A stretch of DNA of 64,000 bases, taken from positions 478,001-542,000 of the forward strand of contig NZ_CP043627.1 of the NCBI RefSeq assembly GCF_016804325.1, in the 5' to 3' direction. The notes beneath the pieces were generated by a model. It ran no database searches, was not told where the DNA came from, and saw nothing but the letters and a program-made list of their open reading frames with translations. The position numbers were made by a program, and so were the translations under genes. This stretch comes from Methylobacterium aquaticum. GTDB lineage: Bacteria; Pseudomonadota; Alphaproteobacteria; Rhizobiales; Beijerinckiaceae. This document shows positions 22,286-57,704 of the stretch, piece by piece; the first letter of the stretch is position 1; the number at the start of each line of letters is the position of its first letter.

Positions 22286-22925
22286 CCCGGTACGGCAGTG
22301 CTCGGAGCCGGAGCCCCTGCCCGTCCAGACCAAGGCGGAACGCAACCGCTTCGTCCTGCATCGTCAGCGGTTACGGATCCCTGGTTGCGCCGCGAGGCCC
22401 GGGGAATGATACCAACGGTCATTGGAAACGACCTTTGGTTCCGTTCTCGAATTTTCGTCAAGCCTCTGGCTTGGCATAGACAATTCGAGATGGCTCAATG
22501 GCCCGATGCGTCAGCATCTTGGGCCATTGGTATGACATCGACGGTGTCGAGCCGTCGGCCAACTCGAACAGGGTCTCCACCTGACGCGTTACCGTGCCGC
22601 CCGACCGCGTGGACGGGCCGCGACGGGCGGATGAGCCGTCGCCGCCCCTGCCGGCCGAGACCACGGCTGGGTCGAGCCGTCATGTCCGGGGACCGACGGC
22701 GGGCGGGAAAGAATCCGGCTCTCGCGCGCGAGGCGGATTCCCTGCGTGGCCTCGCCAATATACACAAGCTGAGTATATATCATTCAGACATTCCTGTGAC
22801 ACCTCGTGCCCGAGACGGTGCACGAGGCACGCCCGGTGCGCGCTCCCTGCCCGACAGCGTTCCGCGACCAGGCGTCGAGCAGCCATGCAGCACCACCCCG
22901 TCCCGCGACGCGCGACACCCCGACG
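22286..22925. other. Intergenic region holding repeat RA copy 1 and the tadG-like promoter
   Basis: 640 bases without a gene. It contains structured repeat RA1 (22409-22533). An AT-richer stretch at 22755-22800 probably holds the promoter of the rightward TadG-like gene. Open frames on the minus strand read through the repeat and are not supported. Confidence 0.5.
22409..22533 (+). repeat. Structured interspersed repeat RA, copy 1
   Basis: A 125-bp element with outer arms ATACCAA (22409-22415) and TTGGTAT (22527-22533). Inside are three hairpins. GGTC/GACC is at 22417-22433. CTCGAATT/AATTCGAG at 22446-22489 encloses AAGCC-TCT-GGCTT. GGCCC-ATGC/GCAT-GGGCC lies at 22500-22525. It closely matches copy 2 at 57577-57702 and is more distantly related to copy 3 at 50355-50483. 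It follows the L,D-transpeptidase gene in the same direction. Confidence 0.88.
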
Positions 22926-24299
22926 ATGACGTCGTTTCCCGGCGCCCACCCGCCTCGCCATTTCGCGCGCGACAGCAGCGGGACCTTCCTCGTCGCCTTC
23001 GCGGTCGCCCTGCCGGTCCTGCTCGGATCGGTGAGCGCAGCCGTCGAGTACAGCCGCCTGCTCTACCGCAAGAGCCAGTTGCAGAGCGCCGCCGATGCCG
23101 GGGTGCTGGCCGGCGCCAACATGCTCAAGCTCGCCAATGCGGACGAGGCCTCGGTGGCGAGCATCGCCCGGCAGACGATCGAGGCGCAGGCGCGGAGCCC
23201 GGCCGACCGCAGCAGCGGCATCGTGGTCACGGTCGGCGACCGGCGCAGCTCGGTATCGACGGTGATCGAGGAGACGGTGCCCTCGCTCATGGGCAAGCTG
23301 CTCAGCCTGCCCTCCACCACCCTGATCGTCCGGGCGACGGCGCAGCTCGTCGGCTCGGTCCGGCTGTGCCTGCTCGCCCTCGACCCCTCGGCCAAGGGCG
23401 CCTTCGACCTCGAGAAGAAGGCGCAGATCACCGCCGAGGGCTGTTCGCTCTACTCGAACTCCACCAGTCCGAGCGGCATCCAGGGCAGGGACAGCGCGAC
23501 GGCCCGGGCGCTCTCGATCTGCTCGGCGGGCGGCTTCGACGGGGCGAAGGCCCTGTTCACCCCGGCGCCGATCACCGATTGCGCGCCGATCGGCGATCCG
23601 CTGAAGGACCGCCCGCTGCCGGCGCCGGACGTGAACTGCGTGATCCTGGGGCCGTGGGTCAACCCGCTCGCGAAGGCGCCCCCAGGCCCTCCCAACGTGG
23701 TGACGGGGATCGTCACCCTCGATCCCGGCACCTATTGCGGCGGCCTGCGCATCACCGAGACCGCGAATGTCCGGCTCCGCGCCGGGACCTACGTGATGAA
23801 GGACGGCCCGCTGATCGTCGACAAGAAGGCGAGCGTGTCGGGCGAGGGGGTCGGGTTCTTCTTCACCGGCGACAGGGGCGGGATGCTGTTCGACAAGGAC
23901 ACCACGGTCAGCCTCACCGCGCCGACGAGCGGCCTGATGGCCGGCCTGCTGATGGCCGAGAGCCGGACCGTCGCCAGTCCCGTCCCCGTCCCGATCGACA
24001 CCGCCATCACGCCGCCGCCGCCTCCCCCGCCGGGCGGCGCCAAGGCGATGCGGGAATACCGCATCATCAGCGACAATGCCCGCACGATGCTGGGGACGAT
24101 CTACCTGCCGGCGGGCCGGCTCGTCATCGACAGCAGCCGCCCGGTCGCCGACCAATCGGCCTATACGGTGATCGTGGCGCGGCAGGTCAACCTCTACGAG
24201 GGGCCGAACCTGACTCTCAACGCCAATTACGGCGCGACCTCGGTGCCGGTCCCGGACGGTGTCGGACCGAGATCGGGCCAGGCGGCGCTCCGGAACTGA
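22926..24299 (+). CDS. TadG-like pilus-assembly/surface protein
   Basis: A 457-residue protein. Its N-terminus matches the TadE/TadG group: a short basic leader, then a hydrophobic helix (FLVAFAVALPVLLGSVSAAVE) and YSRLLYRKSQLQSAADAGVLAGAN, the family's signature for membrane-anchored pilus-assembly proteins. The rest is a periplasmic, beta-rich region with a Pro run (PPPPPPPGG at about 360). TadG proteins normally act with Flp pilus systems; no other tad gene is nearby, so this is an orphan. ATG 22926 (MTSFPGAHPP) is used. It converges with the YeiH gene, 6 bases away. Confidence 0.85.
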   Translation: MTSFPGAHPPRHFARDSSGTFLVAFAVALPVLLGSVSAAVEYSRLLYRKSQLQSAADAGVLAGANMLKLANADEASVASIARQTIEAQARSPADRSSGIVVTVGDRRSSVSTVIEETVPSLMGKLLSLPSTTLIVRATAQLVGSVRLCLLALDPSAKGAFDLEKKAQITAEGCSLYSNSTSPSGIQGRDSATARALSICSAGGFDGAKALFTPAPITDCAPIGDPLKDRPLPAPDVNCVILGPWVNPLAKAPPGPPNVVTGIVTLDPGTYCGGLRITETANVRLRAGTYVMKDGPLIVDKKASVSGEGVGFFFTGDRGGMLFDKDTTVSLTAPTSGLMAGLLMAESRTVASPVPVPIDTAITPPPPPPPGGAKAMREYRIISDNARTMLGTIYLPAGRLVIDSSRPVADQSAYTVIVARQVNLYEGPNLTLNANYGATSVPVPDGVGPRSGQAALRN

Positions 24300-24305
24300 A
24301 CGCCG

Positions 24306-25352
24306 TCAGGAGATGCCCAGTCCCCGCACCAGGGCGATGCTGACGAGGAGGAGCACCGCCAGGGAGGCGGTGACCGCGAGCGTCACCCGGCCGCCGACCC
24401 GGGCCACCACCCGCACGTCGACGCCCAGCCCCAGAGCCGCCATGGCGATCACCGTGAGGATGCCGGCGACGCGCGTGAGCGGCGCGAGCGCCGCGTCGGG
24501 AACGAGGCCGAGCGAGCGGGCGGTGGCCAGCACCAGGAAGCCGAGGATGAACCACGGCACCAGCTTGAAGAAGCCGAGCCTCTTTCGCGCCCCGGCCGCC
24601 GCACCGGGCTCGTCGCGCAGGCGCGGGGCGAGCAGCGACAGGCCGAGCACCACGGGCCCGAGCATCAGCACCCGCACGAGCTTGACCAGCGTGCCGACCT
24701 GGGTGCTGACGAGGCTCACCGGCACGGTGGCGGCGAGCACCTGCGGCACCGCATAGACCGTGAGGCCGGCGAGCACGCCGTACTCGGTCGGGTTGGTGCC
24801 GAGCAGCGGAATCAGGAGCGGCAGGCCGAGCACCACCAGCACGCCCAGGATCGCCGTGAAGGCGATCGAGGAGGCGACGTCGTCGCCCTTCGCCCCGATC
24901 ACCGGGGCCACCGCGGCGATGGCCGAGTTGCCGCAGATCGCGTTGCCGCAGGCGATCAGGATCGACATCCGGGCCGGCAGCCCGAGCAGGCGGCCGATGC
25001 CGTAGCTGGCGGCGAGCGCGATCACCACGGTGGCGACGATGCCGGTGAGCAGGGCCGGCCCCGAGGCGACGAGGGCCTTGAGACTGATCGAGGCGCCGAG
25101 CAGCATCACGGCGACCTCCAGGAGCTGCTTGGCGCTGAAGGCGATGCCGATGCGCCAGCGCGGCCCCGGCTCCCAGACCGAGCGGATCGCGATGCCGGCG
25201 AGGATCGCGATCACCAGCGCCTCGACATAGGGGTGGTGGACGAGGTGCTCCTCCGCCGCCTGGACCAGGCTCGCCGCCGCCGTGACGACGACGCAGAGGG
25301 TGAGGCCGGGCAGGACCGCGACGGCGGTCCGCCCCAACGTGTCAGGCCGCAT
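24306..25352 (-). CDS. YeiH/UPF0324 family membrane transporter
   Basis: A 348-residue inner-membrane protein of the YeiH (Cons_hypoth698) family, with about ten hydrophobic helices. Characteristic parts are VEALVIAILAGIAIRSVWEPG near the N-terminus, ARMSILIACGNAICGNSAIAAVAP (a conserved family segment), and STQVGTLVKLVRVLMLGPVVL. Members are annotated as putative sulfate exporters, but the substrate is not proven for most. The stop faces the TadG-like stop across a 6-base gap, so the pair must share or read through terminators. Confidence 0.9.
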   Translation of the reverse strand: MRPDTLGRTAVAVLPGLTLCVVVTAAASLVQAAEEHLVHHPYVEALVIAILAGIAIRSVWEPGPRWRIGIAFSAKQLLEVAVMLLGASISLKALVASGPALLTGIVATVVIALAASYGIGRLLGLPARMSILIACGNAICGNSAIAAVAPVIGAKGDDVASSIAFTAILGVLVVLGLPLLIPLLGTNPTEYGVLAGLTVYAVPQVLAATVPVSLVSTQVGTLVKLVRVLMLGPVVLGLSLLAPRLRDEPGAAAGARKRLGFFKLVPWFILGFLVLATARSLGLVPDAALAPLTRVAGILTVIAMAALGLGVDVRVVARVGGRVTLAVTASLAVLLLVSIALVRGLGIS

Positions 25353-25412
25353 CGCCGGGCATGCTCGTGAAGGAGGGAGGGCGCGGGCTCCCGCCGCGCG
25401 TCGCGGGAGGTC

Positions 25413-25733
25413 TCACGGACGGAAGCTCGTGCCGATGCCGGTCCGCGGCCTCTGGCCGAGCCAGAGCAGGACCAGGCCGAGGAGGACGGCGATCGGGGCC
25501 GCCGGCGAGAGGGTGAAGGGCAGGCCGAGGAGCTTCCACAGGGTCGGCTGCCCGCCCTCGGCCATCGCCTGGAGGTTCGCGGCCCGGTCCTTCATCAACG
25601 CCACCGCGACGTCGCTGACCGAGGTGACGAGCACCGCGTTGTTGGCGATCGAGCGGGCGCCGTCATAGACGATCCCGACGAAGCCGGCGGCGAGAAGCAG
25701 AAGGCCGAGGCTGCGGCACAGGAAGCGGATCAT
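25413..25733 (-). CDS. Small two-helix membrane protein
   Basis: A 106-residue protein with two predicted membrane helices (about 4-24, SLGLLLLAAGFVGIVYDG; and 78-96, APIAVLLGLVLLWLG) joined by a soluble loop. It resembles small uncharacterised membrane proteins found across Rhizobiales that start with a similar FVxxVxDGARSIA segment. Function is unknown. ATG 25733 (MIRFLCRSLG) is chosen because the longer frame to 25934 is Arg-rich and lacks family features. It lies 60 bases upstream of the YeiH gene in the same direction and may share its promoter. Confidence 0.72.
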   Translation of the reverse strand: MIRFLCRSLGLLLLAAGFVGIVYDGARSIANNAVLVTSVSDVAVALMKDRAANLQAMAEGGQPTLWKLLGLPFTLSPAAPIAVLLGLVLLWLGQRPRTGIGTSFRP

Positions 25734-25912
25734 CCAGGGCTCCGGACCGCGCCCCGGGCGGGACGCACGCGACCTTGAGTAGAGAGAGCCCCCGGCCCGC
25801 GCAAGCTTGAGCGCGGCATCGTGGCAGGGTGTTCCGGGGTGGGTTGATCCCGGCCGCCCCCGCGTGCCACGGCGCTCACGACCGACAAGGTCAGCGGTCC
25901 GAGGAGATCGGC

Positions 25913-26626
25913 ATGAACGGCAGGACGGGCGCACGGCCGGAACTGGTGATCTTCGATTGCGACGGCGTGCTGGTGGACAGCGAGCCGATCAGCCTCGCGC
26001 GCCTGACGGAGAACCTTCGGCGCATCGGCGTGCCGATCGACCTCGCCACGGTGGCCCGCCGCTTCACCGGCACCAGCATGACCTCGATCATGGCGCATGT
26101 CGCCGCCGATTACGGCGTGCCGACGCCCGAGGGCTTCGTCGACGCGGTGCGGGCCGACACCCTGCGGGCCTTCGATGCCGAGCTGCAGGCCATCGCCGGC
26201 GTGAGCGCGGTGCTGGCGACGATGCCCGACCGGCGCTGCGTCGCGTCGAGCAGCGACCCGCAGCGCCTGCGCCACGCGCTCTCGCTCACCGGGCTCCTGG
26301 ACCACTTCGACGGCCACGTGTTCAGCGCCACCATGGTGGCGCGGGGCAAGCCGTTCCCGGACCTCTTTCTCTACGCCGCCGAGCAGATGGGGGTGGCGCC
26401 CGGGCGTTGCGTGGTGATCGAGGACAGCGTGCCGGGCGTCACCGCGGCGCGGGCCGCCGGCATGCCGGTGCTGGGCTTCTGCGGCGGCGGCCACTGGGCC
26501 CACGACCGGGCCGGAGCGGACCTTTTGGCCGCAGGGGCGCTCCGGGTCTTCGACGAATTCGCCACCCTGCCCCATCTTCTGGAAAACTGGGATCCGGTGG
26601 AGACCGGGGACGCCGCGTCCCGTTGA
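25913..26626 (+). CDS. HAD-superfamily phosphatase/phosphoglucomutase-like
   Basis: A 237-residue haloacid-dehalogenase hydrolase. Motif I is FDCDGVLVDSEP (nucleophile Asp and acid/base Asp). Motif II Ser is in CVASSSDPQR, motif III is the Lys of GKPFPDLFL, and motif IV is EDSVPGVTAARAAGM. The helical cap after motif I, with RRIGVPIDL, matches the beta-phosphoglucomutase/GS1 subgroup, whose members act on phosphosugars or nucleotides. GAGGAG precedes ATG 25913 by 7 bases. The next gene, an FMN reductase, follows after 139 bases and need not be related. Confidence 0.92.
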   Translation: MNGRTGARPELVIFDCDGVLVDSEPISLARLTENLRRIGVPIDLATVARRFTGTSMTSIMAHVAADYGVPTPEGFVDAVRADTLRAFDAELQAIAGVSAVLATMPDRRCVASSSDPQRLRHALSLTGLLDHFDGHVFSATMVARGKPFPDLFLYAAEQMGVAPGRCVVIEDSVPGVTAARAAGMPVLGFCGGGHWAHDRAGADLLAAGALRVFDEFATLPHLLENWDPVETGDAASR

Positions 26627-26765
26627 GGGACGGGGAGCCCTGGCACCGGTTTCGCATCGACTTGCCGCGCGCCCGGCCCTTGCGGGGCGGACGCGACCGG
26701 CCGAGATCCGCCCTGAAGACCGTTCCAGATTCCCGTCGCCCTGACCGAGCCAACCGGAGCCCGCC

Positions 26766-27344
26766 GTGAGACCAGCCCGCATCGTCGCCTTCTCGGGCAA
26801 CGTCCGCCGCCCGTCCCGGACCCGCGTGCTGGTGGAGGCCGTCGCCGCCGAGCTCGCCCGCCGCCGTCCGATCGACCTGAAGGTCTACGACCTCGCCGAG
26901 ATCGGCACCGGGCTCGGCGTCACATCCCGGCAGGCCCTGCCCCTACCGATCGGCCACATGATCGAGGCGATGGAGGGCGCCGACGGGCTGATCGTCGGCT
27001 CGCCGGTGCATAACGGCTCCTATTCGGGCCTGTTCAAGCACGTGATCGATTTCCTCGACCCCGCGTCGCTCGCCGGCAAGCCGGTGGCGATCACCGCGAC
27101 CGGCGGCGGCCCGCGCCACGCCCTGATGGTCGAGCACCAGTTGCGCCCGCTCTTCGGTTTCTTCACCGCCCATGTGGCGCCGACCGCGGTCTATGCCGGC
27201 GAGGCGGAGATCGCGGACGGAGCGGTCAGCGATCCGCGGGTGGCCGAGCGGGTCGCGGCGGCGGCGGGCGAACTCGCCCATCTCCTCGACGTGGCGGAGG
27301 CGGCCAGGCGCGCCGGGGGCGGCCGGGCGGTGGCGGGGTTGTAG
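26766..27344 (+). CDS. NADPH-dependent FMN reductase (MsuE/SsuE-like)
   Basis: A 192-residue flavodoxin-fold reductase that supplies reduced FMN to a monooxygenase. The phosphate-binding loop is FSGNVRRPSRTR, and the family motif reads SPVHNGSYSGLFKHVIDFL. GGGPRHALMVEHQLRPLFGFF is also typical of the MsuE/SsuE sulfonate-use group. No alkanesulfonate monooxygenase gene is nearby, so its partner must be elsewhere. The start is GTG 26766. Downstream is a 745-base region with no gene. Confidence 0.88.
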   Translation: MRPARIVAFSGNVRRPSRTRVLVEAVAAELARRRPIDLKVYDLAEIGTGLGVTSRQALPLPIGHMIEAMEGADGLIVGSPVHNGSYSGLFKHVIDFLDPASLAGKPVAITATGGGPRHALMVEHQLRPLFGFFTAHVAPTAVYAGEAEIADGAVSDPRVAERVAAAAGELAHLLDVAEAARRAGGGRAVAGL

Positions 27345-28090
27345 GATCACCGCGCGATCGACCGGGAGCCCTGTCCGATCTTCGTTGCACCACCGCCCAC
27401 GACAGCGGCCTGACGCCGCGCGTCGCAACCGGCGCAGGCCTCTTCGCCGCGCCGCCCGACGCGGGTCCGGCCGTCGACGCCATCGGCAACCGTCCCGTCG
27501 GCGCCGGATTCACGCCGGTCTCGGCCATTCCCTCACATCGACGCGCGTGAGCGATGTCCGGCCGAGATCCCGGATCCATGCCGGCCAATCCCGGATCGTC
27601 GCGTGCGATCCCGAGACGTTCGATCGCCCCGCCGGGATATTTTGCCGCGACTTGATCCGACAGGCGATCCGGCCCATTCGCCAGCGTCGCCAAATTTCTT
27701 GCATCCTCGATTTCTCCGACACGATACTTCCAGAAATATTCATTGCATAAACATACCAATCACAGTCCCCGGACACCCATTCAGACAATGCGGTGCTGCG
27801 GCGCAGTACACCACAGATATCCGCGCTCTTCTTGCGAGATCCAGGGTCGGATATCGATTCTACGCGTTTAGGAGATTTTTCAGAACTAAAAAATATCGAA
27901 AGCTAGGATGGTAGCGCTTCCATTTTAATCAACACTGGTCTCCACGATCCTGGAACACATGCTCCGGCATCCTGCCTTTGCCCGTTTGATAGGCATATAA
28001 ATCGCCCATTTGACGGATTTAGTCGGAAAATAAACTTTCGTTTAAGGTTCACTCAGCAAGGGTTCGTCCATAAGTCCAAGGGCAGGAAAC
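27345..28090. other. Long AT-richer intergenic region before a chemoreceptor gene
   Basis: The first 300 bases are GC-rich with no supported gene. From about 27640 to 28085 the DNA is distinctly AT-richer, likely the promoter and leader of the chemoreceptor at 28091. Small frames here (for example, around 27603-27914) have no family features. No riboswitch was recognised. Confidence 0.4.
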
Positions 28091-29770
28091 ATGCACCTCA
28101 ACGTCTCGGTCCGCGTCCGGCTCGTCGCATCGCTGCTCGTCCTGCTCTCCCTGACGCTCGGCCTCGGCGGCTTTTGCCACTACCGCCTGAGCGAGCTGCG
28201 CGTCGCGGTCGGCGACCTCGGCGACACTGCGCTTCCGTCGTCCAGGATCGTCGGCCGGCTCGCCGCCAACTTCGAGGCCCTGCGCAGCCGTCAGCTCGCC
28301 TACCTGCTCTCCAGCCCGCAGCGCCGACCGCAATCGCTGGGCCGCCTGCGCGAGACCATGGCGAGCATCGAGATCGACCTGAAGGACTACGCGCCCCTCG
28401 TCAGCCCCGGCGAGGAGGCGCTCTGGCAGGCGATCCAGAAGACCGTTCCGGCCTATTCCAGGATGGGCGAGGAATACCTGCGCCGCCTGGAGGCAGGCGA
28501 CGAGAAGGGCGGCTCGGAGTACCTCCTCGACGGCATGCTGCCGGCCCTCAACGCCGCCCGCGCCGCCATCAGGGCCGACGTTCAGTTCAACGACGCCTTC
28601 GGCCGCAAGGCCGCCGCGACGGCCAACGCGCTGGGTGACGACGCCCGCACCGCCATCGTCGTCGTGCTCGCGGTCGTCGTTGCCGTCACCCTGGCGATTT
28701 CCTGGATGGTGATCGCCACCGTATCCCGTCCCGTCCGGCACATGGCCGGCGTGATGCATCGGATCGCGATGGGCGACCTCGGCGCATCGGTGCCCGGCGC
28801 CGGCGAGCGCAGCGAGATCGGCGAGATGGCCGCCGCCGTCGAGGTGTTCAGGACCAACCTCGCCCGCACCCGCCAGCTCGAGGACGACGCGGCGCGCGCC
28901 CGCGCCTCGGCCGAGGAGCAGCGCAAGCGCGCGATCCGCGAGATGGCCGCCGGCTTCGAGGCTGCGGTCGGCGATGTCATCGGCATGGTCGCCGCCGCCG
29001 CGACCGAGCTGCAGGCCACCGCCGCCTCGATGAGCGGCACCGCCACGGAGACCGCCGTGCAATCGACGGCCGTGGCGGCGGCGGCCGAACAGGCCGCCTC
29101 GAACGTCGGCACCGTGGCGGTCGCCGCCGAAGAACTCGGCGCCTCGGTCCAGGAGATCGGCCGGCAGGTCGGCGGCTCGGCCGACCTGGCCCGGCGGGCG
29201 GTCATGGAGGCCGACCAGGCCGGCGCCCTGGTTCAGGAACTCAACGCCGCGGTCGCGCGGATCGGCGACGTGGCCGGCCTGATCTCGTCCATCGCCGATC
29301 AGACCAACCTTCTGGCCCTGAACGCCACGATCGAGGCGGCGCGGGCGGGAGCGGCCGGAAAGGGATTCGCCGTCGTGGCGGCCGAGGTGAAGGCGCTGGC
29401 CGGCCAGACCGCCACGGCGACGAGCGAGATCTCCAGCCAGATCGAGCGGATCCAGGCCTCGACCGGGCATGCGGTCGGCTCGATCCAGGGCATCACGGCG
29501 CGCATCCGCGAGATCGACGCGGTCGCGGCCTCGATCGCCGCGGCGGTGGAGCAGCAGGGCGCGGCAACGCAGGAGATCGCCCGCAACGTGAGCCAGGCGG
29601 CGATCGGCGCAAGCGAGGTGACCGGCAACATCACGGGCGTCGCGGGCGCGGCCGAGGAGACCGGGGCGGCCGCCGCCCAGGTTCTGGCGGCGTCCTCGGA
29701 GCTGTCGCGCCACTCCGAGCACCTGACCTCCGAGGTCGGCCGGTTTCTCGCGACCGTGCGTGCGGCCTGA
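28091..29770 (+). CDS. Methyl-accepting chemotaxis protein, four-helix-bundle sensor
   Basis: A 559-residue chemoreceptor. Membrane helix 1 is at about 9-29. A periplasmic region of about 155 residues is all helical and lacks cache features, as in four-helix-bundle receptors ([28 protein letters not shown]). Helix 2 is at about 188-208, then HAMP ([19 protein letters not shown]). The signalling tip is [20 protein letters not shown]. Ligand unknown. The gene ends at the first base of repeat RB copy 1, so that repeat begins within its stop codon. Confidence 0.95.
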
Positions 29771-29868
29771 GCAGACTTGCGTTGGCAGGCCAACGCTTCG
29801 CCCGCTTGGGTTTTTGTTGTGTCGCAGATTTTTCGCGCCGAACCGGCCACCACTTCGGCGAAATCTGC
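29770..29868 (+). repeat. Structured interspersed repeat RB, copy 1
   Basis: A 99-bp element starting AGCAGACTTGC. Hairpin 1 is GCGTTGGC-AG-GCCAACGC (29779-29796). Hairpin 2 pairs GCAGATTT (29824-29831) with AAATCTGC (29861-29868), and inside it CGCCGAA (29836-29842) with TTCGGCG (29854-29860). Copy 2, on the other strand at 48793-48894, has GCGCTGGC-AA-GCCAGCGC and GGCAGA/TCTGCC, so paired bases changed together. Confidence 0.85.
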
Positions 29869-30175
29869 TTGGAGCACGTCGCGATCGCGCTGCAATCGCG
29901 ACGCTCTCTCGATCTGTGATCCTGCCGCATTGTCCGCGACGAACCGGCATTCATTGCGCAGGACAATGCTCTGGAGTCTTTTTCGACGACGCGGATACCG
30001 GTTCTTCACGGACGAAGCGACAAAATGACGTTGGGGCAACATCAAGAACCTCGATCGCGGCGGGCACGGCCGCGTCGCGATCCGGGATATCGTCGCGACC
30101 CGCCTCGACCCTCGTCCGCGTGGCCGCCTCGCCCATGCGCGCCGCGGGACTCGTCCCTCGTTTGCCAGTGACGCC
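29869..30175. other. Intergenic region between repeat RB1 and the diguanylate cyclase
   Basis: Holds an inverted repeat GCATTGTCC and GGACAATGC about 30 bases apart near 29929-29972. It could form a terminator-like or operator-like structure. The remainder is featureless apart from the presumed promoter of the gene at 30176. Confidence 0.45.
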
Positions 30176-31693: not shown

Positions 31694-31724
31694 GATCCCG
31701 CGGCCCACGCCCCCATCTCTCTCC

Positions 31725-33346: not shown

Positions 33347-33425
33347 GGGTGTGAAACGGGGATTACGGAGAATTCGAGCGATCGGACAGAGGAATCGCTG
33401 ACGGGCCTGCGGCACGATCGCGGTC

Positions 33426-47094: not shown

Positions 47095-47110
47095 CGGACG
47101 GCGCCGAGGC

Positions 47111-48735: not shown

Positions 48736-48792
48736 GACGGGGCGCGTCGAGGGGCAGGCGCGGCGGTTGCCCCTCGATCGTGAGATCGGATC

Positions 48793-48894: not shown

Positions 48895-48973
48895 GAGGTG
48901 GCGGTCCGAACGCTGCGCCGCCTTCGAGCCGGACGCGCGACGGAACAACGAGAAACGGTCTCGGGAGAGCCTC

Positions 48974-50265
48974 GTGAGTGCCAGCCTGCCGGTCGCCCTG
49001 CCCGATATCGGCGACTTCAAGGATGTCCCGGTGGTCGAGATCCTGGTCAAGCCGGGCGACCGGATCGCCGTCGACGACCTGCTGATCAGCATCGAATCCG
49101 ACAAGGCCACCATGGAGGTTCCCTCGCCGGTGGCGGGCGTGGTGGCCGAGATCCTGGTGGCGCCGGGCACGCGGGTGTCGACAGGCACGCCGATCCTGAC
49201 GGTCGACACGTCGGGCGAGGCCGCCGTGCCGGCGGCGGCGCCCCGGGCGGCTCCCGCTCCCGAGGCCGCTCCGGCGGCGGCGCTGCCCGCACCTGCGCCT
49301 GACGTTTCTTCCTCGTCCGACGCCCACGCCACGCCCTCCGTGCGCGCTTATGCCCGCGAACTCGGCGTCGACCTCGCCGGGATCCCGGGCACCGGCCCGC
49401 AGGGGCGGATCCTGCGCGAGGACGTGCTGGCCTTCGTCCGCGGCCAGATGGCGGCCCCCTCCCGCTCCCCCGCCCCGCCCCCGCCCCCGCGGCGACCCCG
49501 GCGGCCGCGCCCGCCCCGGCCTCCGGGATCGGCGCCGGCCTGCCGCCCTGGCCGCAGGTCGATCACGTCAAGTTCGGCCCGGTGCGGCGCGAGGCGTTGT
49601 CGCGCATCCAGCAGATCTCCGGCCAGGCGCTCACCCGCAACTGGCTGACGATCCCGCACGTCACCAATTTCGACCATGCCGACGTCACCGAGACCGAGGC
49701 GCTGCGGCGCGAACTGAACGGCGCCGCCCGGCCGGGGGCCCACAAGGTCACCATGGTGGCGATCCTGATCAAGGCGGCCGCCGCCGCGCTCCGGGCCCAT
49801 CCGCGCTTCAACGCGGCCCTCGACGGCGACGGCCTGATCCTGAAGGACACCGTCCATGTCGGCTTCGCGGTCGACACGCCGCGGGGCCTGCTGGTGCCGG
49901 TGGTGCGCGACTGCGACCGCAAGGGCCTCGTGGAGATCGCCCAGGAGATGGGGGAGCTCGCCGAGCAGGCCCGCTCCGGCACCCTGCCGCCTTCGGCCAT
50001 GCAGGGCGGCGGCTTCTCGGTGTCCTCGCTCGGCGGCATCGGCGGGGACGGCTTCACGCCGATCATCAATGCGCCCGAGGTGGCGATCCTGGGTGCCGCG
50101 CGCTCGCGCATCGAGCCGGTCTGGGACGGCGCCGCCTTCCAGCCGCGGCTGATCCTGCCGCTCAGCCTGTCCTGGGACCACCGGGCGGTGGACGGCGCCG
50201 CGGCGGCCCGCTTCCTCTCCCATCTCGCCGCCGTGCTCACCGACCTGCGCCGGGGCGCCCTGTGA
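48974..50265 (+). pseudogene. Pyruvate dehydrogenase-type E2 (dihydrolipoamide acetyltransferase), frameshifted in its linker
   Basis: GTG 48974 starts a single lipoyl domain (LPDIGDFKDVPVVEILVKPGD; lipoyl Lys in IESDKATMEVP), an Ala/Pro linker and a peripheral-subunit-binding domain (TPSVRAYARELGVDLAGIPG). The frame then fails in a C-rich linker near 49478-49488. The next frame (49582-50265) carries the catalytic domain: ALSRIQQISGQALTRNW, IPHVTNFDHADVTE, SLGGIGGDGFTP and the active-site DHRAVDGA. One added C gives a 430-residue protein. The catalytic domain is most like E. coli AceF. No E1 or E3 gene is adjacent, so it is an orphan. Confidence 0.88.
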
Positions 50266-50691
50266 TCCGGGGAGCCGTGCCGGGATGCGGGCCCGTGAGG
50301 CGGGGCATGCCCGCCTGAAGGCGTGACCGAGGCGACGCCCCGCGGGCAGGACCGATACCGGCGGTCGTCGATGACGACCGCCGCTTCCGTTCTCGCATCT
50401 TCGCCGAGCCCGAGGCCTCGAACATCGGGGCTCGGTGACGAACGTCCCGGGCCGCTTGCGTCGCAGTCTCGGTCCGTCGGCATGAGCCATAGCCCGTGGG
50501 GAGGAAAGAACCCGTGCCTCTTCGTTTCCCGGGCAGACGCGGGAAGGCTCGGGTGCGAGCCTTGGAAGCGTCAGCGCGGCTCCACCGCCCCGCTCCCGCC
50601 GCAATGCGGCAGGACCAGTGCGCCACCGGGGGCGCGACGCGCTTCACCATCGCTTCACCACGAGGGGCGAGCGTCGCCGAAGGACATCGTC
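50266..50691. other. Intergenic region with repeat RA copy 3, upstream of the Ni/Co genes
   Basis: 426 bases. RA3 occupies 50355-50483. The remaining 200 bases before the DUF1007 start hold several GC-rich stems. They were checked for a cobalamin or NiCo riboswitch, but the core motifs are not complete. No gene supported. Confidence 0.45.
50355..50483 (+). repeat. Structured interspersed repeat RA, diverged copy 3
   Basis: A 129-bp copy related to RA1 and RA2 but GC-richer. Outer arms read ATACCGGCGG and CCGTCGGCAT. The first inner hairpin GGCGGTCGTC-GAT-GACGACCGCC is a perfect 10-bp stem (50360-50382). TTCCGTTCTCG and the region before the final arm are shared. It follows the E2 gene in the same direction. 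Confidence 0.72.
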
Positions 50692-51336
50692 ATGCTGCGC
50701 CCCTCCCGTCTTCTCGCCGGCCTCCTGCCCGCGGCCCTCGCCGCGGCGACGCCGGCGCTCGCCCATCCGCATGTCTGGATCACCACCCGGGCCGAGCTCG
50801 ATTACGGGCCGGACGGGGCGTTGCGGGCGGTGCGGCACGCCTGGACCTTCGATCCGACCTATTCCGCCTTCGCGATCCAGGGCCTCGGCCAGTCGCCGAC
50901 CGGGCCGATCAACCCGGCGGCACTCGCGGCGCTCGCGCGCGACAACGCCGAGAACCTCGCCGAGCAGGGCTACTTCACGCTGCTGAAGATCAACGGCCGC
51001 AAGCAGGATCTCGGCACGGCCGCCGATCCGGCGATGACCTTCGCGGATGGGCAGCTCACCTTGCGCTTCACCGTGCCGCTCAAGGCGCCTCTGGCCGGCA
51101 CCGCCTCGCTCGAGGTCTACGACCCGACCTATTTCGTCGCCTTCGGCCTCGCCGAGGGCGACGACGTCGCGGTGCTCAAGGGTGCCCCGGCCACCTGCCG
51201 GGTCACCGCCCACCGGCCGAAGAATGCGGCGCCGGCGCCCGCCGCCACCGGCATGTCGGAGGCGTTCTTCGAGGCGATGACCGCCGCCTCGACCTACGGG
51301 GTTCAATTCGCCAACCGGATCGTCGTCGCATGCTGA
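50692..51336 (+). CDS. DUF1007 family periplasmic protein, Ni/Co exporter partner
   Basis: A 214-residue exported protein with a signal peptide (about 1-24, ending ALA-HPH). Family features are AHPHVWITTRAELDYGPDGAL, the N-terminal HPH motif of DUF1007, plus WTFDPTYSAFAIQGL and YDPTYFVAFGL. Proteins of this family are encoded directly before RcnA/HoxN-type exporters and are thought to bind metal in the periplasm via His. The last 7 bases overlap the transporter gene. ATG 50692 is used. Confidence 0.92.
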   Translation: MLRPSRLLAGLLPAALAAATPALAHPHVWITTRAELDYGPDGALRAVRHAWTFDPTYSAFAIQGLGQSPTGPINPAALAALARDNAENLAEQGYFTLLKINGRKQDLGTAADPAMTFADGQLTLRFTVPLKAPLAGTASLEVYDPTYFVAFGLAEGDDVAVLKGAPATCRVTAHRPKNAAPAPAATGMSEAFFEAMTAASTYGVQFANRIVVAC

Positions 51337-52334
51337 CCGCGCTCAGCTTCACCCCTCCGTCCCGCACCCTGCAGCGCCTGGGCCTCGCCGCCCTCGCGGT
51401 GCTGGCGGCGGCCGCCCTCCTGGCGGCCCTCCTCGGAATCCTGGCACCGGGCTTCCGGGCGCCGCCGCGCTCGCCCTTCGGCATCGGCTTTCGCGAGGCG
51501 GCGCCCACCGGCGCCACCAGCCTCGGGGCCTGGCTGCTCGCCATGCAGGCGGGCTTCTCCCGGGCGCTCCAGGCGGCGGTGTCGGCGGTGAAGGCCGGGC
51601 GCGACGGCACCCTGACCCTCGTCGGGCTCGGCTTCGCCTACGGCGTGCTGCACGCCGCCGGGCCCGGCCACGGCAAGGCGGTGATCGCCGGCTACCTGAT
51701 GGCCGGCGAGCGGGCCCTGAAGCGCGGCTTCGCCCTGAGCCTGCTCGCGGCCCTGCTCCAGGCCTTGGTCGCCCTGGCCCTGGTCGGCGGCGGCGCGGTC
51801 CTGCTGCGGATGACGGCGTCCGGCCTCAACCAGGCCGGAACGATGATCGAGACCGCGAGCTTCGCCTGCGTGGCGCTCCTCGGGGCGGCGGTGACCTGGC
51901 GCAAGGCCGGGCAGCTCGCCCGACTGCTCAACCGCGAGGCGGGGCCGGCCTGCGGACCCGATTGCGGCCATGCGGGCCTCGCCGACGGGGCCAAGGTGGA
52001 GCGCCTGACCACCTGGCGCGAGCAGGCCGGCGTGGTCTTCGCCGCCGGCACGCGGCCTTGCGCCGGGGCGGTGCTGGTGCTGGTCTTCGCCCTGTCGCAG
52101 GGCATCCTGTGGGCGGGGGTGGCCGCCACCCTGGCGATGGCGCTCGGCACCGCGATCACCACCGGGGTTCTGGCGGCACTCGCGGTCTTCGCCAAGGCGC
52201 TGGCGCTCAGGCTCGCGGGCGGCCGCGGCCAGGGCGGGGCGATCGCGGTCGGCGTCCTCGAATTATGGGCCGCCGCCTTCGTGCTGGTGCTGGGCGCCGG
52301 GCTGCTGTCCGGCTGGGCCGCGAGCGCTTTCTAG
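51330..52334 (+). CDS. Nickel/cobalt exporter (NicO/RcnA family)
   Basis: A 334-residue inner-membrane protein with about seven hydrophobic helices. The family's metal-binding signature GVLHAAGPGHGKAVIAGYLMAGE is at about 105-127, and FAAGTRPCAGAVLVLVFALSQG and ALGTAITTGVLAAL follow. A Cys/His-bearing loop (GPACGPDCGHAGLAD) at about 205-219 may bind metal. It would export or import Ni2+/Co2+; the DUF1007 partner and layout favour efflux. ATG 51330 overlaps the previous gene. Confidence 0.92.
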   Translation: MLTALSFTPPSRTLQRLGLAALAVLAAAALLAALLGILAPGFRAPPRSPFGIGFREAAPTGATSLGAWLLAMQAGFSRALQAAVSAVKAGRDGTLTLVGLGFAYGVLHAAGPGHGKAVIAGYLMAGERALKRGFALSLLAALLQALVALALVGGGAVLLRMTASGLNQAGTMIETASFACVALLGAAVTWRKAGQLARLLNREAGPACGPDCGHAGLADGAKVERLTTWREQAGVVFAAGTRPCAGAVLVLVFALSQGILWAGVAATLAMALGTAITTGVLAALAVFAKALALRLAGGRGQGGAIAVGVLELWAAAFVLVLGAGLLSGWAASAF

Positions 52335-52362
52335 GCCGAGCTTAAGCCGAGGCTTTTCTGAC

Positions 52363-53250
52363 TCAGGCGACCGCCGCGACCCGCGCGCGGCGCCGCCGCG
52401 GGCTCGCCGCAGCGGCGACGGAGGCGAAGCTGATCTCCTGGCGCTCGCGGGCCACGAAGGCGCCGGGCATCTCGGCCTGCATCTGCACCTCCAGCTCGCG
52501 CAGCAGCGCGTCGGTGTGCTGGGGATAGAGATGTACGATGCCGAGGCGCCCGACATTGCCGGCCCGGCACAGTTCCACGCCCTTCTGCCAGGTCGAGTGG
52601 CCCCAGCCGCGGCAGGCCGGGTACTCCCCTTGCGTGAACATGCCGTCATAGACCACGAGGTCCGCGCCGCGCACGAAGTCCAGCAGCGCCGGATCGGGCC
52701 AGGGCTCGGAATGTTCGAGGTCGCTGATGTAGCAGGCGGTGCGGCCGCCATGGCGGAAGCGGTAGCCGGTGGCGCCCTGGGGATGCTCGAGCAGGATGGT
52801 GTCGACCACCGCGCCGTCCGGGAAGGTCAGGCTCTCGCCGGCCCGGAACCCGTGATGGACGAAGCGGGCGGGGAACATGTCGAGGGTGATCGGGAAGAGC
52901 GGCGGCGAGAACAGCCGGTCGAGGGGCTCGGCGGCGCTCGCCCCGTCGAGGTTGCCGCACCAGGTGTGGATCTCGCAGGCCGGGTTGAGCACCGCCGGCT
53001 TCATGAACGGCAGGCCGCCGACATGGTCGAGGTGGAGGTGGCTCAGCAGCAGGTCGATCCGCTGGGGCAGCCGGTCGCGATGATGGACGCCGAAGGCGTT
53101 GATGCCGGTGCCGGCATCGATCACGAACAGCCGCTCGCCGCAGCGGACTTCCACGCAGGGGGTGTGCCCGCCGAATTCCACGAATTCCGGACCGGAGGCG
53201 CAGGTCGACCCCCTGACGCCCCAGAACCGGAGCGTCAGGCCGGCTTCCAT
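52363..53250 (-). CDS. Metallo-beta-lactamase-fold hydrolase (RNase Z/PhnP-like)
   Basis: A 295-residue protein of the beta-CASP-lacking, RNase Z-like MBL group. The metal-binding motif is LLLSHLHLDHVGGLPF (HxHxDH); a further ligand is the Asp of CYISDLEH; and a His of EHPQG or GWGH completes the set. RFWGVRGSTCASGPEFVEFGGHTPCVEV is the common opening of this subgroup. The substrate is unknown. The C-terminal 30 residues are Ala/Arg-rich. ATG 53250 is chosen by the family start; ATG 53271 is possible. Confidence 0.9.
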   Translation of the reverse strand: MEAGLTLRFWGVRGSTCASGPEFVEFGGHTPCVEVRCGERLFVIDAGTGINAFGVHHRDRLPQRIDLLLSHLHLDHVGGLPFMKPAVLNPACEIHTWCGNLDGASAAEPLDRLFSPPLFPITLDMFPARFVHHGFRAGESLTFPDGAVVDTILLEHPQGATGYRFRHGGRTACYISDLEHSEPWPDPALLDFVRGADLVVYDGMFTQGEYPACRGWGHSTWQKGVELCRAGNVGRLGIVHLYPQHTDALLRELEVQMQAEMPGAFVARERQEISFASVAAAASPRRRRARVAAVA

Positions 53251-53438
53251 GAGAGGACCCCTCGTTGTCATGCCGGCGACCGTGATGGGGTGAGTGGGGG
53301 TTGGATGTGCGATGACGCACATGGCGGATGCTCCGGCCGGTCGGCCCGGCAAGACACGATGATGGGCTGTGCACGAGAGATGTGCGTCACGAACGATGAG
53401 CACAAGACGAAGGTTCCCCCGGACGGCCTAATCTGTCG

Positions 53439-56146
53439 TTAAGCCGTGTGCTCGCGCACCGGGCCTGTGGATGCCGGGGCATCCTGCCCGAGCGCGGCCG
53501 TCGCGGGAAGACCCTCTCGCGCGTCATCCGCCGGGACCGGGCCGCCCTCGGCCCGCACCACGGTGTTGCGCTCGGCCCGCAGCATCAGGTCGAAGGGGGC
53601 GTCCGGATCCGGCCGGCACTCGTCCGGCAGGCAGACCACGAGGCCGCGCCCGGCCCGGGCCGCCCGCAGCCGCGCGATCCCCGCCATGATCTCGGGCGCG
53701 CCGCGATCGTCGAGGGCGAGGCCGACCACCAGGATGTCGGGCCGGCGCACCAGGCAGCGGGCGAGGTCGATCGCCAGGCGCTCCGACGGCGTGAAGCCGT
53801 CGCGGCCCGACAGCCCGCTCTCGCCCGCCCGCGGATCGACCTGGCTGGCGAGGCCGAAGCGGTAGACCGTCCGTTCCAGGCCGCGCTCGCGCAACACCGC
53901 CTGCATCAGGGTCCGCACCCGCGCGCCGGCCCCGGCCTCGGCCCCGGCGATCCGGCCGAACAGCAGGTTCTCCTCCAGGCTCGCCGCGGCGGTGACCTTG
54001 CCCGGATCGTAGAATTCCACCGAGCCCTGGAGCGAGGCCGGCAGCAGGGCCGCGAAGGTGCGCCGGGCCGCGACGAGGCGCGCCTCCATCGCCTCGTCGA
54101 TCAGGCCGAAGCGGTGCCGGGTCTCGCTGTAGCGCAGGCACAGGCCGATCAGCCGGGCGCGGTCGCGCTGGCCGGCGGGGCCGCGGCGCCAGCCCGACGC
54201 CTCGGGCTGGCGTGCCACCAGGTCCTCGAAGAAGCCACGCTCCCGGGCCGGGAAGAGCGAGAACGCGTCGAAGAGCGGGTGGTCGTCGGGCAGGTCGGAG
54301 AAGATCTCGACGGTGGCCCGGGCGATGGCCAACCCCATCTCGGTCATCGGCCGGGTCAGGCCTTCCGCCTCCAGCACCGCCCGGGTGAAGGGATGGCCGG
54401 CGAGCCGCGCCTCCGAGAAGGCCGAGCCGACCGGCGCCCCGAACAGGATGTTCTCGCCCACCGTCGCCTGGCGGTTGTAGCGGGCGGGGTCGAACGGCTC
54501 GATCAGGTGGGCGGCCTGGTCCGCCACCAGCGCGGCGCGCAAGGCATCCCGGGTCTCGACGATCGCCGCGGCGGTAGCGGGGTCGAGCCGGCGCGGCAGC
54601 ACGCTGGCGAGCCCGCGGCCATAGACCAGCCGGTCGAGCCCGGTGACCGCCAGGGCCTCGACCAGCCGCTCCTCCAGTTCGCCGGCATTCGGCGCGTTCG
54701 CCTCCGGGCTCGATCCGTCGGCGAAGGCGGGGTCGCCGTAGAGCAGGTTCTGCAGCAGCGTGCCGGCCATCAGCACCGGCTCGGCCCCGACATAGGCGAT
54801 GCGCCGCGCCCGCTCCGCCGGATCGACCGAGCGCAGGTCGGTGCCGGCATAGGACACCGCCCCGGCGGTGGGTTCGAGCTGGCCGGCGATCAGGGCCGCC
54901 AGCACGCGGCCGCCGCTGCCGCGGTCGCCCAGGATCGCCACGTGGCCCGGCATCGGCACGGCGAGGTCGAGGCCGATCAGCCGCTCGCCCGAGGCCGGAT
55001 CGTAGGCCGCGACGCGCGACAGCACGATCGGACCGGCATCCGGCAGCGCCTCGGATTGGCTGCGCAGGCGGCGCGGCGCCCGGGCGCGGGCCTCGAGCGC
55101 GGCGGTGGCGCGGGCGATCTCCCGGAAGGCCGGCAGGGCGGCGCGCCGCCGCCGGTTCTGGCGCAGGAAGGCCGCCGCCGCGCTCGAGGCCACGGCGAGC
55201 GCGCCGAGCACCGCCGAGAGGCCGCCGGCGCTCACCGGGGCGGCGGGGGTGGGGCCCTGCCAGAGCGCGGCGGCGAGCACGATGGTCGGCACCAGAACGG
55301 TGAGCGCCAGGGCCGGGGCGCGGGCGCGGGACAATTCGTCCTCGGTCTCGGTCAGGGCCCGGCGGGCCCGCTCGGCGACATGGCCGAGGCGGGCATGCTC
55401 GAAGGCGGTCGTGCCGTGGGCCCTGACCGCCGGCAGGCGCCGCACCAGGTCGGTCAGGCCGCGCTCCAGGGCGGCGCCTTCCAGCCGGCGCTGGTCGTCC
55501 CGGCGCTCGGTGCGGGTGATGAGGAGCTGGCGCGCGAGCGCCGCCGCCACGAGGCTGATGCCCGCCACCGCGACGAGGCGCGGCGCCACGGCGGCGGCGA
55601 CGGCCAGCGTCACCAGCACGGCGCCCGCCGCGAGCGCCGGGACCAGGATTCCGACGGCGAGCAGCCCGTCGGCGGCGCGGATCGCCGCCCCGACCTGGCC
55701 GGCGAGCGCCCGTGCATCGTCGCGGGAGGCCGGTCCCGAGCGCAGGATCGCGTCCTCGGCCAGTTCCCGCAGGCGGCGCACCGCCTCGGCTTGCGCGCTC
55801 ACGCAGAGCCGCGCCACCCCCAGCCGAGGAGGGCGAGGCTGAACGCCACGCCGATCAGGCAGCCCAGCGCCCACAGGGTCAGGGCGCTCTCCGGCAGCGG
55901 CCAGCCGCGCACCAGCACCAGACCGTGGCCGCCGAACCGCTCCGGCAGCGGCACGACGAGGTGGAGGAAGTGGATCGGCCCCCGCCCCGGCTCGGCGAGC
56001 GCCAGCAGCTCGTCGACGAGGTCGCGCAGCGCGAGCAGCCCGAGCCCGACCAGCGGCCCTCCGAGACCGAGGGCGACCGCGATGGCGGCGGCGTGCCGGC
56101 GCTTGGCGCTGTGCCAGGCGAAGACGATCGGATCGCGGTCCATCAT
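53439..56146 (-). pseudogene. Degenerate ABC exporter with three NBD-like modules, split by a frameshift
   Basis: Part one (56146-55799, 115 residues) has two membrane helices and ends mid-domain. Part two (55802-53439, 787 residues) starts at an overlapping GTG with further helices. The five-base C run at 55817-55821 lacks one base; restoring it fuses them into about 902 residues in the correct ABC order. The Walker A-like site reads GDRGSGGR (about 292-299), with Gly and Arg at the Lys and Ser/Thr positions. Walker B-like DILVVGLALDD lacks the catalytic Glu. Three NLLYG/NILFG/NLLFG blocks lie at about 352, 451 and 612. ATP use is doubtful. Confidence 0.8.
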
Positions 56147-56543
56147 CGGAACGGGCGACGGGAGCGGGGGGAGGAGATGCCCGAGATGGGAGCGCCAGTG
56201 GCCGGCGCCGGTCCGGTGCGCGGGGGCGGGCCCTCGGGCCGTCTCGCGGTGGTGACCATGAGCCTCCTCGATGTTGCGCGAGGTATGGGCCGCGCGGGCC
56301 GGAGCGGTCAAGCCGGGCGGGCGGACGGTCCCGCCCCGGCCGTCATCCGTCCCGAGACCGCCTTCGTCCAGCACAGGGGTGCGCAACGGCACCCGGCCTT
56401 CCCATGCTCGGGATTATTGTTCGAGATCTGAGAGGGTGCGTGGTCGCACATCGCGAAAATTCTGTTTCGATCATCGTCGTCTTCATCGCCGGACGACAGA
56501 TCATCTGTTTCGGCAAGACATTGTTGCGAGAGAGGACGACGCG
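56147..56543. other. Intergenic region with the ABC exporter and small exported protein promoters
   Basis: 397 bases. GC-rich on the left, AT-richer at 56410-56530, which is the likely promoter of the rightward gene at 56544. No supported gene or structured element. Confidence 0.4.
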
Positions 56544-56792
56544 ATGAAGACGATCACGATCGGCACCATCCTGGCCGCCATCGCCCTGCCGGGCGCCGCA
56601 TGGGCCGAAGGCGGCGAGGGCAGCCGCCAGGCCGCCGGCGGCGGGTTCATGAGCAGCTACGTCGCCAGCCCCTACCACGATCCCCGCTCGCCGCTGTCGC
56701 AGCGGGCCGGCACCGGCCAGATCCAGGGCCAGCCGATGGTCGCCGAGCGCGGCAACGGCGTCGAGCGGGGCCGCTGGGCGGTGGGGCGGTAG
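56544..56792 (+). CDS. Small exported protein of unknown function
   Basis: An 82-residue protein with a signal peptide (about 1-21, ending AWA-EGG). The mature part is Gly/Ser/Gln-rich with no Cys and no family I recognise (MSSYVASPYHDPRSPLSQRAG). It is likely periplasmic. GAGAGGACGAC precedes ATG 56544. It lies 81 bases before the carbonic anhydrase in the same direction; co-transcription is plausible. Confidence 0.7.
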   Translation: MKTITIGTILAAIALPGAAWAEGGEGSRQAAGGGFMSSYVASPYHDPRSPLSQRAGTGQIQGQPMVAERGNGVERGRWAVGR

Positions 56793-56873
56793 CCGGCCGC
56801 CGCCACGAAGCCCCGTCTCCCACGCTCTTTCCTGATTCTCGCCTGATTCTCGCGCTCGATCGAAGGACCCACC

Positions 56874-57704
56874 GTGGACAACAGCATCATCCAAGGCATC
56901 TCCACCTTCCGCGGCAGCGTCTTCCCCGGCCAGCAGCGGATGTACGAGCGCCTCGTGCGCGACGGGCAGCAGCCCAAGGCCTTGATCATCGCCTGCGCCG
57001 ATTCCCGGGTCGCTCCCGAGCACATCACCCAGGCCGGCCCCGGCGAGCTGTTCGTCTGCCGCAACGCCGGCAACATCGTGCCGCCCTTCGCGGAGATGAA
57101 CGGCGGCGTCTCCTCGGCGATCGAGTACGCGGTGGTGGCGCTCGGCGTGCGCGACATCGTGGTCTGCGGCCACTCGGATTGCGGCGCGATGAAGGGGCTG
57201 ATGCAGCCCGGCGCCCTCAAGGACATGCCGAACGTCGCCGCCTGGCTGCGCCACAGCCACGCCGCCGACCGGATCGTCTGCGAGGCCTATCCGCACGACA
57301 TCGACCCCGGTGACCGCCTGCGTGCGCTCGCCCTCGAGAACGTGGTGGTGCAGCTCGCCCACCTGCGCACCCACCCGAGCGTGGCATCTGCGCTCGCCAG
57401 GGGGCGGCTCTCCCTGCACGGCTGGTTCTTCGAGATCGAGACCGGCCGGCTCCACGCCTATGACGGGAGCCGCTTCGTGGCGCTCACCGACGACACCCCC
57501 TGCCGGTGGCCGAGGTCTCGACGCCCCGGCGCGCGGCGGCCGACCTCGCCGGTCCGATGCGGGTCGCGGCGGAATAATACCAACGGTCGTTGGAAACGAC
57601 CTTTGGTTCCGTTCTCGAATTGTCGTCAAGCCTTTGGCTTGGCACAGGAAAATTCGAGATGGCTCGATGGCCCGATGCGTCAGCATCTTGGGCCATTGAT
57701 ATAA
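56874..57704 (+). CDS. Beta-class carbonic anhydrase with a frameshifted C-terminus
   Basis: Beta-carbonic anhydrase that interconverts CO2 and bicarbonate. Zinc ligands are in ACADSRVAPE (Cys, Asp-Arg dyad) and VCGHSDCGAMKG (His, Cys). The fold is complete to LTDDT. Then the frame runs into repeat RA2 and ends at 57704. Adding one C to the five-base run at 57496-57500 would give ALTDDTPLPVAEVSTP and a stop at 57575-57577, about 234 residues, which matches the family. The tail as given is thus an artefact of that lost base. The start is GTG 56874. Confidence 0.9.
   Translation: MDNSIIQGISTFRGSVFPGQQRMYERLVRDGQQPKALIIACADSRVAPEHITQAGPGELFVCRNAGNIVPPFAEMNGGVSSAIEYAVVALGVRDIVVCGHSDCGAMKGLMQPGALKDMPNVAAWLRHSHAADRIVCEAYPHDIDPGDRLRALALENVVVQLAHLRTHPSVASALARGRLSLHGWFFEIETGRLHAYDGSRFVALTDDTPCRWPRSRRPGARRPTSPVRCGSRRNNTNGRWKRPLVPFSNCRQAFGLAQENSRWLDGPMRQHLGPLI
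57577..57702 (+). repeat. Structured interspersed repeat RA, copy 2
   Basis: A 126-bp near-identical relative of RA1 (22409-22533). Outer arms are ATACCAA and TTGATAT. Its first hairpin is perfect here: GGTCGTT-GGA-AACGACC, where RA1 has a mismatch. CTCGAATT and AATTCGAG enclose AAGCC-TTT-GGCTT. It begins at the last base of the restored carbonic anhydrase stop codon. Confidence 0.88.

Follow-up and report, generated by a model that had tools for sequence, protein, structure and literature searches.

The element and its copies

A short repeated element occurs three times in a 64,000-nt stretch of the Methylobacterium aquaticum genome (contig NZ_CP043627.1, positions 478,001 to 542,000 of the forward strand; hereafter the window), where each copy lies downstream of a gene and on its strand (Table 1). 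An earlier note, made from the letters alone, had named these genes as an L,D-transpeptidase, an E2 and a carbonic anhydrase gene, names that their Pfam domains bear out, and had taken the three repeats for relatives; a covariance model whose 64 rows include the three window copies scores all three as genuine copies of one element. The evidence below points to a miniature inverted-repeat transposable element (MITE) that very often sits at stop codons.

Table 1. Copies of the element in the window and the genes beside them (positions are those of the window).
Feature	Position	Strand	Evidence or remark
Copy 1 of the 123-bp element	22410..22532	+	138.1 bits, covariance model
Left target duplication of copy 1, TGA	22407..22409		TGA again at 22533-22535
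Right target duplication of copy 1, TGA	22533..22535		
Hairpin 1 of copy 1, contains left inverted repeat	22411..22439	+	predicted fold, covariation
Hairpin 2 of copy 1, stem in two parts	22446..22489	+	predicted fold, covariation
Hairpin 3 of copy 1, apex GATGC-GTCA-GCATC, contains right inverted repeat	22496..22529	+	predicted fold, covariation
L,D-transpeptidase (YkuD) gene, 124 bp upstream of copy 1	20468..22285	+	PF03734
Strongly diverged GC-rich copy, flanks CGA / TGA	50356..50482	+	57.4 bits, covariance model
2-oxoacid dehydrogenase acyltransferase (E2) gene, 90 bp upstream of diverged copy	49582..50265	+	PF00198
Copy 2 of the element, 124 bp	57578..57701	+	131.2 bits, covariance model
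TAA: carbonic anhydrase stop codon (frame of the L129 relative) and left target duplication of copy 2	57575..57577	+	
Right target duplication of copy 2, TAA	57702..57704		
Carbonic anhydrase gene, start from gene caller	56874..57577	+	PF00484 over 56874-57461

Copies 1 and 2, both young, are 94% identical over a 77-base block and 93% identical over a 58-base block. Copy 2 begins directly 3′ of the TAA that ends the carbonic anhydrase gene when the gene is read in the frame of a relative, L129, which has a TAG at the matching position. Near 57490 (57480-57500), the window gene differs from L129 in length by one base, shifting the frame shortly before the stop; this is either a real change or a sequencing error, and owing to it copy 2 (57578), although it sits at a stop, is counted as a 'no' in the stop tally below.

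The host genome (7.28 Mb, 5 contigs) contains far more than three copies. The genome-wide covariance search that the earlier note had proposed gave 82 matches of at least 47 bits, every one on contig C1, with 150 of 2982 candidates scored; at E ≤ 0.001 there are 125 matches, many of which are antisense readings of the same copies. Further, a 23-base pattern with up to three mismatches has 80 sites, compared to a single site for a control pattern. Exact matches to the 23-base core in the genomes of named species comprise at least 40 stretches, all of those listed being from Methylobacterium (M. aquaticum, tarhaniae, indicum, oryzihabitans, ajmalii and nonmethylotrophicum among the matches listed), and of 99 Methylobacterium genomes examined by DNA search, 16 (counting the host's) have the element. 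From the host, 79 distinct copies were extracted (a duplicate, L021, was dropped) and both ends were placed in 73; the script could not place the ends of L053, L072, L073, L075, L076 and L078, and it cut L037, L038, L060 and L064 at an internal right site, making the counts of target duplications and antisense stops too low.

The element spans TACC to GGTA, with a length of 123 bp in 62 of the 73 placed copies, and has the build of a MITE: it is short, lacks a transposase gene, and ends in terminal inverted repeats (TACCAACGGTC / TACCAATGGCCC) with the consensus TACCAAYGG (TACCAA...TTGGTA). Identical TNA triplets border 58 of the 73 copies (TAA 22, TGA 20, TCA 11 and TTA 5). Moreover, five copies (L010, L020, L046, L047 and L059) are nested within another dispersed repeat, and their flanks, when joined with one TNA, match the uninterrupted repeat without gaps and with 1-7 mismatches in 36, whereas joining them with an extra TA yielded zero matches. 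The flgG gene supplies an empty site in another species: it has a single TAA in genome G105 (L259) and TAA-element-TAA in the host (L034), followed by the same 27 bases. The nested insertions and the flgG site thus indicate that insertion duplicates 3 bp; a 2-bp TA duplication is ruled out, since only joins with a single TNA recovered empty sites. Both the target duplication and the empty sites expected of a MITE were therefore found. The third target base is not absolute, because one copy (L295:1001-1120) is flanked on both sides by TTG rather than TNA. The dispersed palindromic repeat that has received the MITE several times (CACCTCAGGATGAGGTCG plus adjacent hairpins) was seen at L010, L020, L046, L047, L059 and L126.

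The host also carries an autonomous element with matching ends. Among the 100 host sites listed, pairs of the terminal inverted repeat pattern about 1180 bp apart mark a 1175-bp insertion sequence (IS) with the terminal inverted repeat TACCAACGGCC. Its two open reading frames (ORFs) match the IS630 family NF033545 (108.5 and 148.5 bits; cut-off 100), the second one has a DDE_3 domain (PF13358), and their overlap at TTTTAAAAAACC suggests programmed frameshifting. Thirteen full IS copies were collected from Methylobacterium (seven from the host, four from G105, and one each from G106 and G073), with TNA on both flanks in 13 of 13 and identical TNA in nine; the host's own copies were found by a pattern that includes TNA, the six from other genomes by sequence. 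Four IS copies (L119, L120, L121 and L124) are flanked by differing TNA triplets, and such copies may be recombinants between IS copies. The two elements also occur together: the MITE is carried by 10 of the 12 Methylobacterium genomes with a listed end-reaching IS match versus 6 of the 87 others (p = 3e-8), where four candidates were scored per genome and the statistics ignore kinship.

Two other features of the window are set apart from the element. An 18-bp tandem repeat at 5213-6034 (30 overlapping registers) overlaps a called gene, and three large genes (14207-16198, 28091-29770 and 57769-59736) are alike, with 73-77% identity over blocks of 159-659 bases, and perhaps encode putative chemoreceptors.

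Placement at stop codons

Placement near gene ends, a check the earlier note had called for, turned out to be real and sharper than guessed. With gene ends taken from a simple codon-usage gene caller trained on the window, 44 of the 73 placed copies lie exactly at a called stop codon; 35 are in sense orientation, starting directly after the stop of the upstream gene, and nine are antisense, with their ends immediately at a convergent gene's stop. The expectation is 8.4%, as 176 of 2085 TNA triplets outside coding interiors (window plus flanks) are stops, giving p = 9e-29. A target context of GNSTNASNC, with weights derived from the 29 non-stop copies, lifts the expectation to 18%, and the excess persists (p = 3e-15). 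Eighteen occupied genes were queried by their final 150 bases in four other genomes, which recovered 30 loci of nine genes, and in all 30 the orthologue has its stop at the same codon. Orthologues of TAA-occupied genes stop with TAA, TAG or TGA. Further, 25 of 60 copies in other Methylobacterium genomes are at stops (18 sense and 8 antisense, one being in both tallies); the pattern used to locate their ends contained TNA, and several placements are poor (up to 8 mismatches).

Copies beyond the genus show the same placement. In a survey of 199 genomes of the order, from 99 genera, 16 genomes in 12 genera, the host's included, had covariance matches at E ≤ 0.001, with a best E below 1e-10 in ten genomes; the weaker matches may be chance. 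A sample of the class gave one weak match among 384 other genomes with a second model, and both searches were run with stricter filters. Twenty copies from seven genomes of other genera have TACC-like and GGTA-like termini; the flanking triplets are identical for 15 of them, and 16 are at a called stop (10 sense, 6 antisense). In particular, genome G204, from another genus, has 26 copies (eight of them also counted among the 20 above), eight found by the model and 18 by the terminal inverted repeat pattern; 20 of the 26 are 120 bp long, 24 have identical flanking triplets and 21 are at stops (15 sense, 6 antisense). The 18 came from a pattern containing TNA with one mismatch allowed; the eight model-only copies have identical triplets in 8 of 8 (one TTG) and stop placement in seven. 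G204 likewise carries the matching autonomous element, as two IS copies of 1161-1162 bp with the terminal inverted repeat TACCAACGGCC; their DDE part is 56% identical to that of the host IS, and their second ORF matches the IS630 family at 144.7 bits.

Insertion into the protein, as with the RPE of Rickettsia, was considered and not upheld. At 126 bp, the element plus its duplication has a length divisible by three. Of 62 copies, 54 have one sense frame open and 58 a second, and each antisense frame is open in at most five; however, few flanking frames enter the element, as called frames continue into it only at the window copy with the changed frame, at L038 and at L068, and L004 adjoins a gene on its start side.

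One account of the placement would be pure tolerance, with insertion into random TNA sites and stops being merely the least harmful ones. It gains from the fact that a TNA duplication rebuilds the stop and that context alone moves the expectation from 8.4% to 18%. The autonomous element complicates the comparison: full IS copies are at a stop in 1 of 13 cases in Methylobacterium (p = 5e-4 versus 44 of 73 for the MITE), or 2 of 15 with G204 included (p = 0.001), the second being the stop of a weakly scoring ORF; yet IS copies within one genome hardly differ (at 0-4 positions among L119-L123), which makes them younger than the MITE copies and less filtered, and tolerance could use this to explain the difference. 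Tolerance should also favour sites just downstream, where 75 of the surveyed TNA sites lie 1-20 bp after a stop (176 are at one), but only five copies are found 3-20 bp past a stop versus 44 at distance 0, and it leaves the orientation bias and the preference for TAA unexplained. Overall, tolerance as the whole explanation seems somewhat unlikely. Nor did the placement depend on age: the share of copies at stops does not increase with divergence (16/26, 14/21 and 9/15), and age-dependent placement was rejected as a sign of retention.

Fold and covariation

The predicted fold of copies 1 and 2 consists of three consecutive hairpins (RNA z of -6.9 and -7.7, with 0 of 200 shuffles equal). The three hairpins of the earlier note are thereby recovered; its cloverleaf is not, because the 'outer arms' correspond to the terminal inverted repeat and pair inside hairpins 1 and 3, so that the best fold is three separate hairpins. 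For the diverged copy (50356-50482), the fold has z = -2.5 with 5 of 200 shuffles equal, and hairpin 1 alone is recovered as in the others; the paired changes that the note had read in this copy are accordingly clear in hairpin 1 and weak elsewhere.

Covariation exceeds that of shuffled alignments, as the note had anticipated, in three alignments. Both-sided changes occur in 22 of 45 pairs (106 cells versus 30.7 in shuffles) in A1, which holds 63 of 121 listed copies and one consensus row with most near-identical host copies omitted; in 38 of 45 pairs (159 cells versus 38.9) in A3, with 26 model matches from 21 loci of other genera that include five antisense or spurious readings and one duplicate; and in 34 of 45 pairs (212 cells versus 61.9) in A4, with 39 copies (23 Methylobacterium, 16 other genera). 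A3 and A4 were fitted to the covariance model, which biases them towards the structure; A1 was not. In all three, none of the 500 shuffles came up to the observed value by any measure, and shifting the structure by 1-3 columns gave far lower covariation scores. Hence neither of the outcomes named in the note as fatal to its proposal, a repeat limited to three copies or an absence of covariation, was observed. A described RNA family is rejected, as no Rfam family matches the window, six other loci or the copy-1 region at the gathering threshold.

The distribution of mutations suggests when the fold is selected. Across the 62 full-length host copies, substitutions seen once (private), taken to postdate landing, fall at paired and unpaired sites in a ratio of 40:17, against 84:39 for the sites themselves (p = 0.89), and those in copies at stops in a ratio of 28:11; in contrast, variants common to several copies, and so propagated, avoid stems, with 18 of 44 at paired sites (p = 2e-4). 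As private mutations ignore stems and shared ones avoid them, the fold is seemingly kept for mobility and not for an RNA role in the host, and the simplest reading is that selection on it acts during propagation and not detectably after landing, although the counts of private and shared variants are modest and weak host selection would escape them.

This bears on whether the element is a host-serving module of 3′ untranslated regions (3′ UTRs), kept at stops in sense orientation since its hairpins end or stabilise the mRNA. The sense bias at stops, 35:9 in the host (p = 1e-4), 18:8 in other Methylobacterium (p = 0.08), 53:17 pooled (p = 2e-5) and 15:6 in G204, would follow from such a role, as would the deep structural conservation across genera, and transcription of a three-palindrome repeat has been described for a Bradyrhizobium 3′ UTR (PMC5082802). 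However, stems and loops are hit equally by private mutations even at stops, diverged copies are not more often at stops, and the copy sequences contain no U-run after hairpin 3. A host role therefore appears unlikely, and the 3′ end processing or attenuation suggested in the earlier note has gained no positive support, with the private mutations arguing against the fold being under strong selection once the element has inserted.

The paired changes might also have arisen without any selection, through quasi-palindrome correction, in which template switching perfects imperfect hairpins. The nearly perfect hairpin 1 of the diverged window copy, which is probably old and immobile, fits this process, but covariation distinguishes subfamilies and genera in all three hairpins, and in the host genome the 42 pairs in 62 copies make up 2604 pair-by-copy cells with a double change in just one, so that correction is not frequent; we regard it as quite improbable.

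A mobile element at stop codons

Taken together, the roughly 80 copies with their terminal inverted repeats, the TNA duplications and empty sites, and the IS630-type IS with matching ends favour the 'mobile REP/MITE-like unit' among the functions the earlier note had listed. Our reading, with a probability of roughly 0.82, is that the element is a 123-bp non-autonomous MITE that is mobilised in trans by a DDE transposase of the IS630 type, with a TNA target and a 3-bp duplication; judged from sequence comparison, the 1175-bp IS is its likely mobiliser. An origin as a repetitive extragenic palindrome (REP) or bacterial interspersed mosaic element (BIME) moved by a REP-associated tyrosine transposase (RAYT) would suit a palindromic, extragenic, high-copy repeat near gene ends, and the host genome has one Y1_Tnp gene, but it is rejected as very improbable because no copy of the element lies within 3357 bases around that single gene (L342, C1:1462155), a DDE IS has the same ends, and the element has 3-bp target duplications with empty sites, which REPs and BIMEs are not known to have.

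Several observations weigh against the MITE reading or its extension to stop codons. IS630 elements typically duplicate TA, a 2-bp rule that the 3-bp TNA duplication departs from; the IS and the MITE share only about 11-12 bp of terminal inverted repeat; and a matching duplication is absent in 4 of the 13 Methylobacterium IS copies and in both G204 copies. With four candidates scored per genome, an end-reaching IS match is absent in 6 of the 16 MITE-bearing Methylobacterium genomes. The uninterrupted repeat at the nested sites L020 and L047 has CAA instead of TAA, and mobility is read from sequence comparison. As to the placement, 5 of the 44 stop assignments depend on gene calls scoring below 50, the occupied stops comprise 23 TAA and 21 TGA versus 13 and 160 nearby (p = 2e-10), an over-use of TAA that the reading does not account for, and the rarity of IS copies at stops means that the transposase alone does not explain where the MITE lies.

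The proposed mechanism would run as follows. An IS630-type transposase acting in trans on the MITE would insert it at TNA and leave a 3-bp duplication; because TAA and TGA are themselves TNA sites, insertion at a stop would rebuild the codon, leave the protein untouched and place the element in the 3′ UTR, making the stop codon a safe harbour. The hairpin fold would be kept by selection for mobility while the element propagates. Three things probably add up to the excess at stops: the target context (GNSTNASNC suits a GC-rich gene end), the disappearance of insertions made elsewhere, and some property peculiar to the small element. A bolder version, which we hold only tentatively and think rather doubtful, is that mobile elements forming a family across the order have specialised on stop codons: in contrast to the ~1.2-kb autonomous partner with which it shares the TNA target, the small element would be steered to or kept at TAA and TGA stops, mostly in sense orientation, and its three hairpins would be selected for propagation, perhaps via a folded single-stranded form (DNA or transcript-linked) during transcription or translation termination.

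If the MITE reading is true, a mobile element spreads via gene ends with little damage, its target duplication restoring the stop codon, and this placement is used by 44 of 73 copies in the host genome and by 21 of 26 in G204, from another genus. Since the IS and the MITE share ends and target and differ in placement, they offer a natural system for separating insertion targeting from selection. Moreover, strong RNA-like covariation can stem from a mobile element and not from a host RNA, which calls for caution in the discovery of structured RNAs, and a set of structured 3′ UTRs in a bacterial order, absent from Rfam, is thereby marked.

An IS630-linked MITE is a known kind of element; the association with stop codons and the TNA duplication distinguish this one. 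Searches of an open-access collection yielded no MITE combining stop-codon placement with a TNA duplication and no description of the element. MiniMdi3 of Methylobacterium extorquens is an IS-related MITE of the same genus, present as 4 and 8 MITEs in two strains (PMC2680597, in part); by its description it is set apart, being about 400 bp long and related to ISMdi3 versus 123 bp and linked to IS630. Br-REP1 with its flanking palindromes, from Bradyrhizobium 3′ UTRs between convergent genes, similarly has three palindromes giving three stem-loops and a differential RNA sequencing signal, but its published central palindrome CCGGAATCTCGAGATTCCGG is unlike hairpin 2 when compared by eye with the published text, and the passages of PMC5082802 consulted do not mention inverted-repeat ends, a duplication or an IS partner. 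BOX of Streptococcus pneumoniae overlaps the 3′ end of an annotated coding sequence in 36 cases (PMC3049150, in part); BOX itself encodes the stop, whereas the Methylobacterium element duplicates and keeps the stop of the host gene. The same species harbours RUP, a 107-bp element linked to IS630-Spn1, which resembles the Methylobacterium element in being short and non-autonomous, in its ~100 copies, and in having terminal inverted repeats in common with an IS630-family IS (PMC2229807 and PMC3049150, each in part). The portions of these two papers at hand report no excess at exact stop codons for RUP, and its target contains TA, while the Methylobacterium element duplicates the 3-bp TNA.

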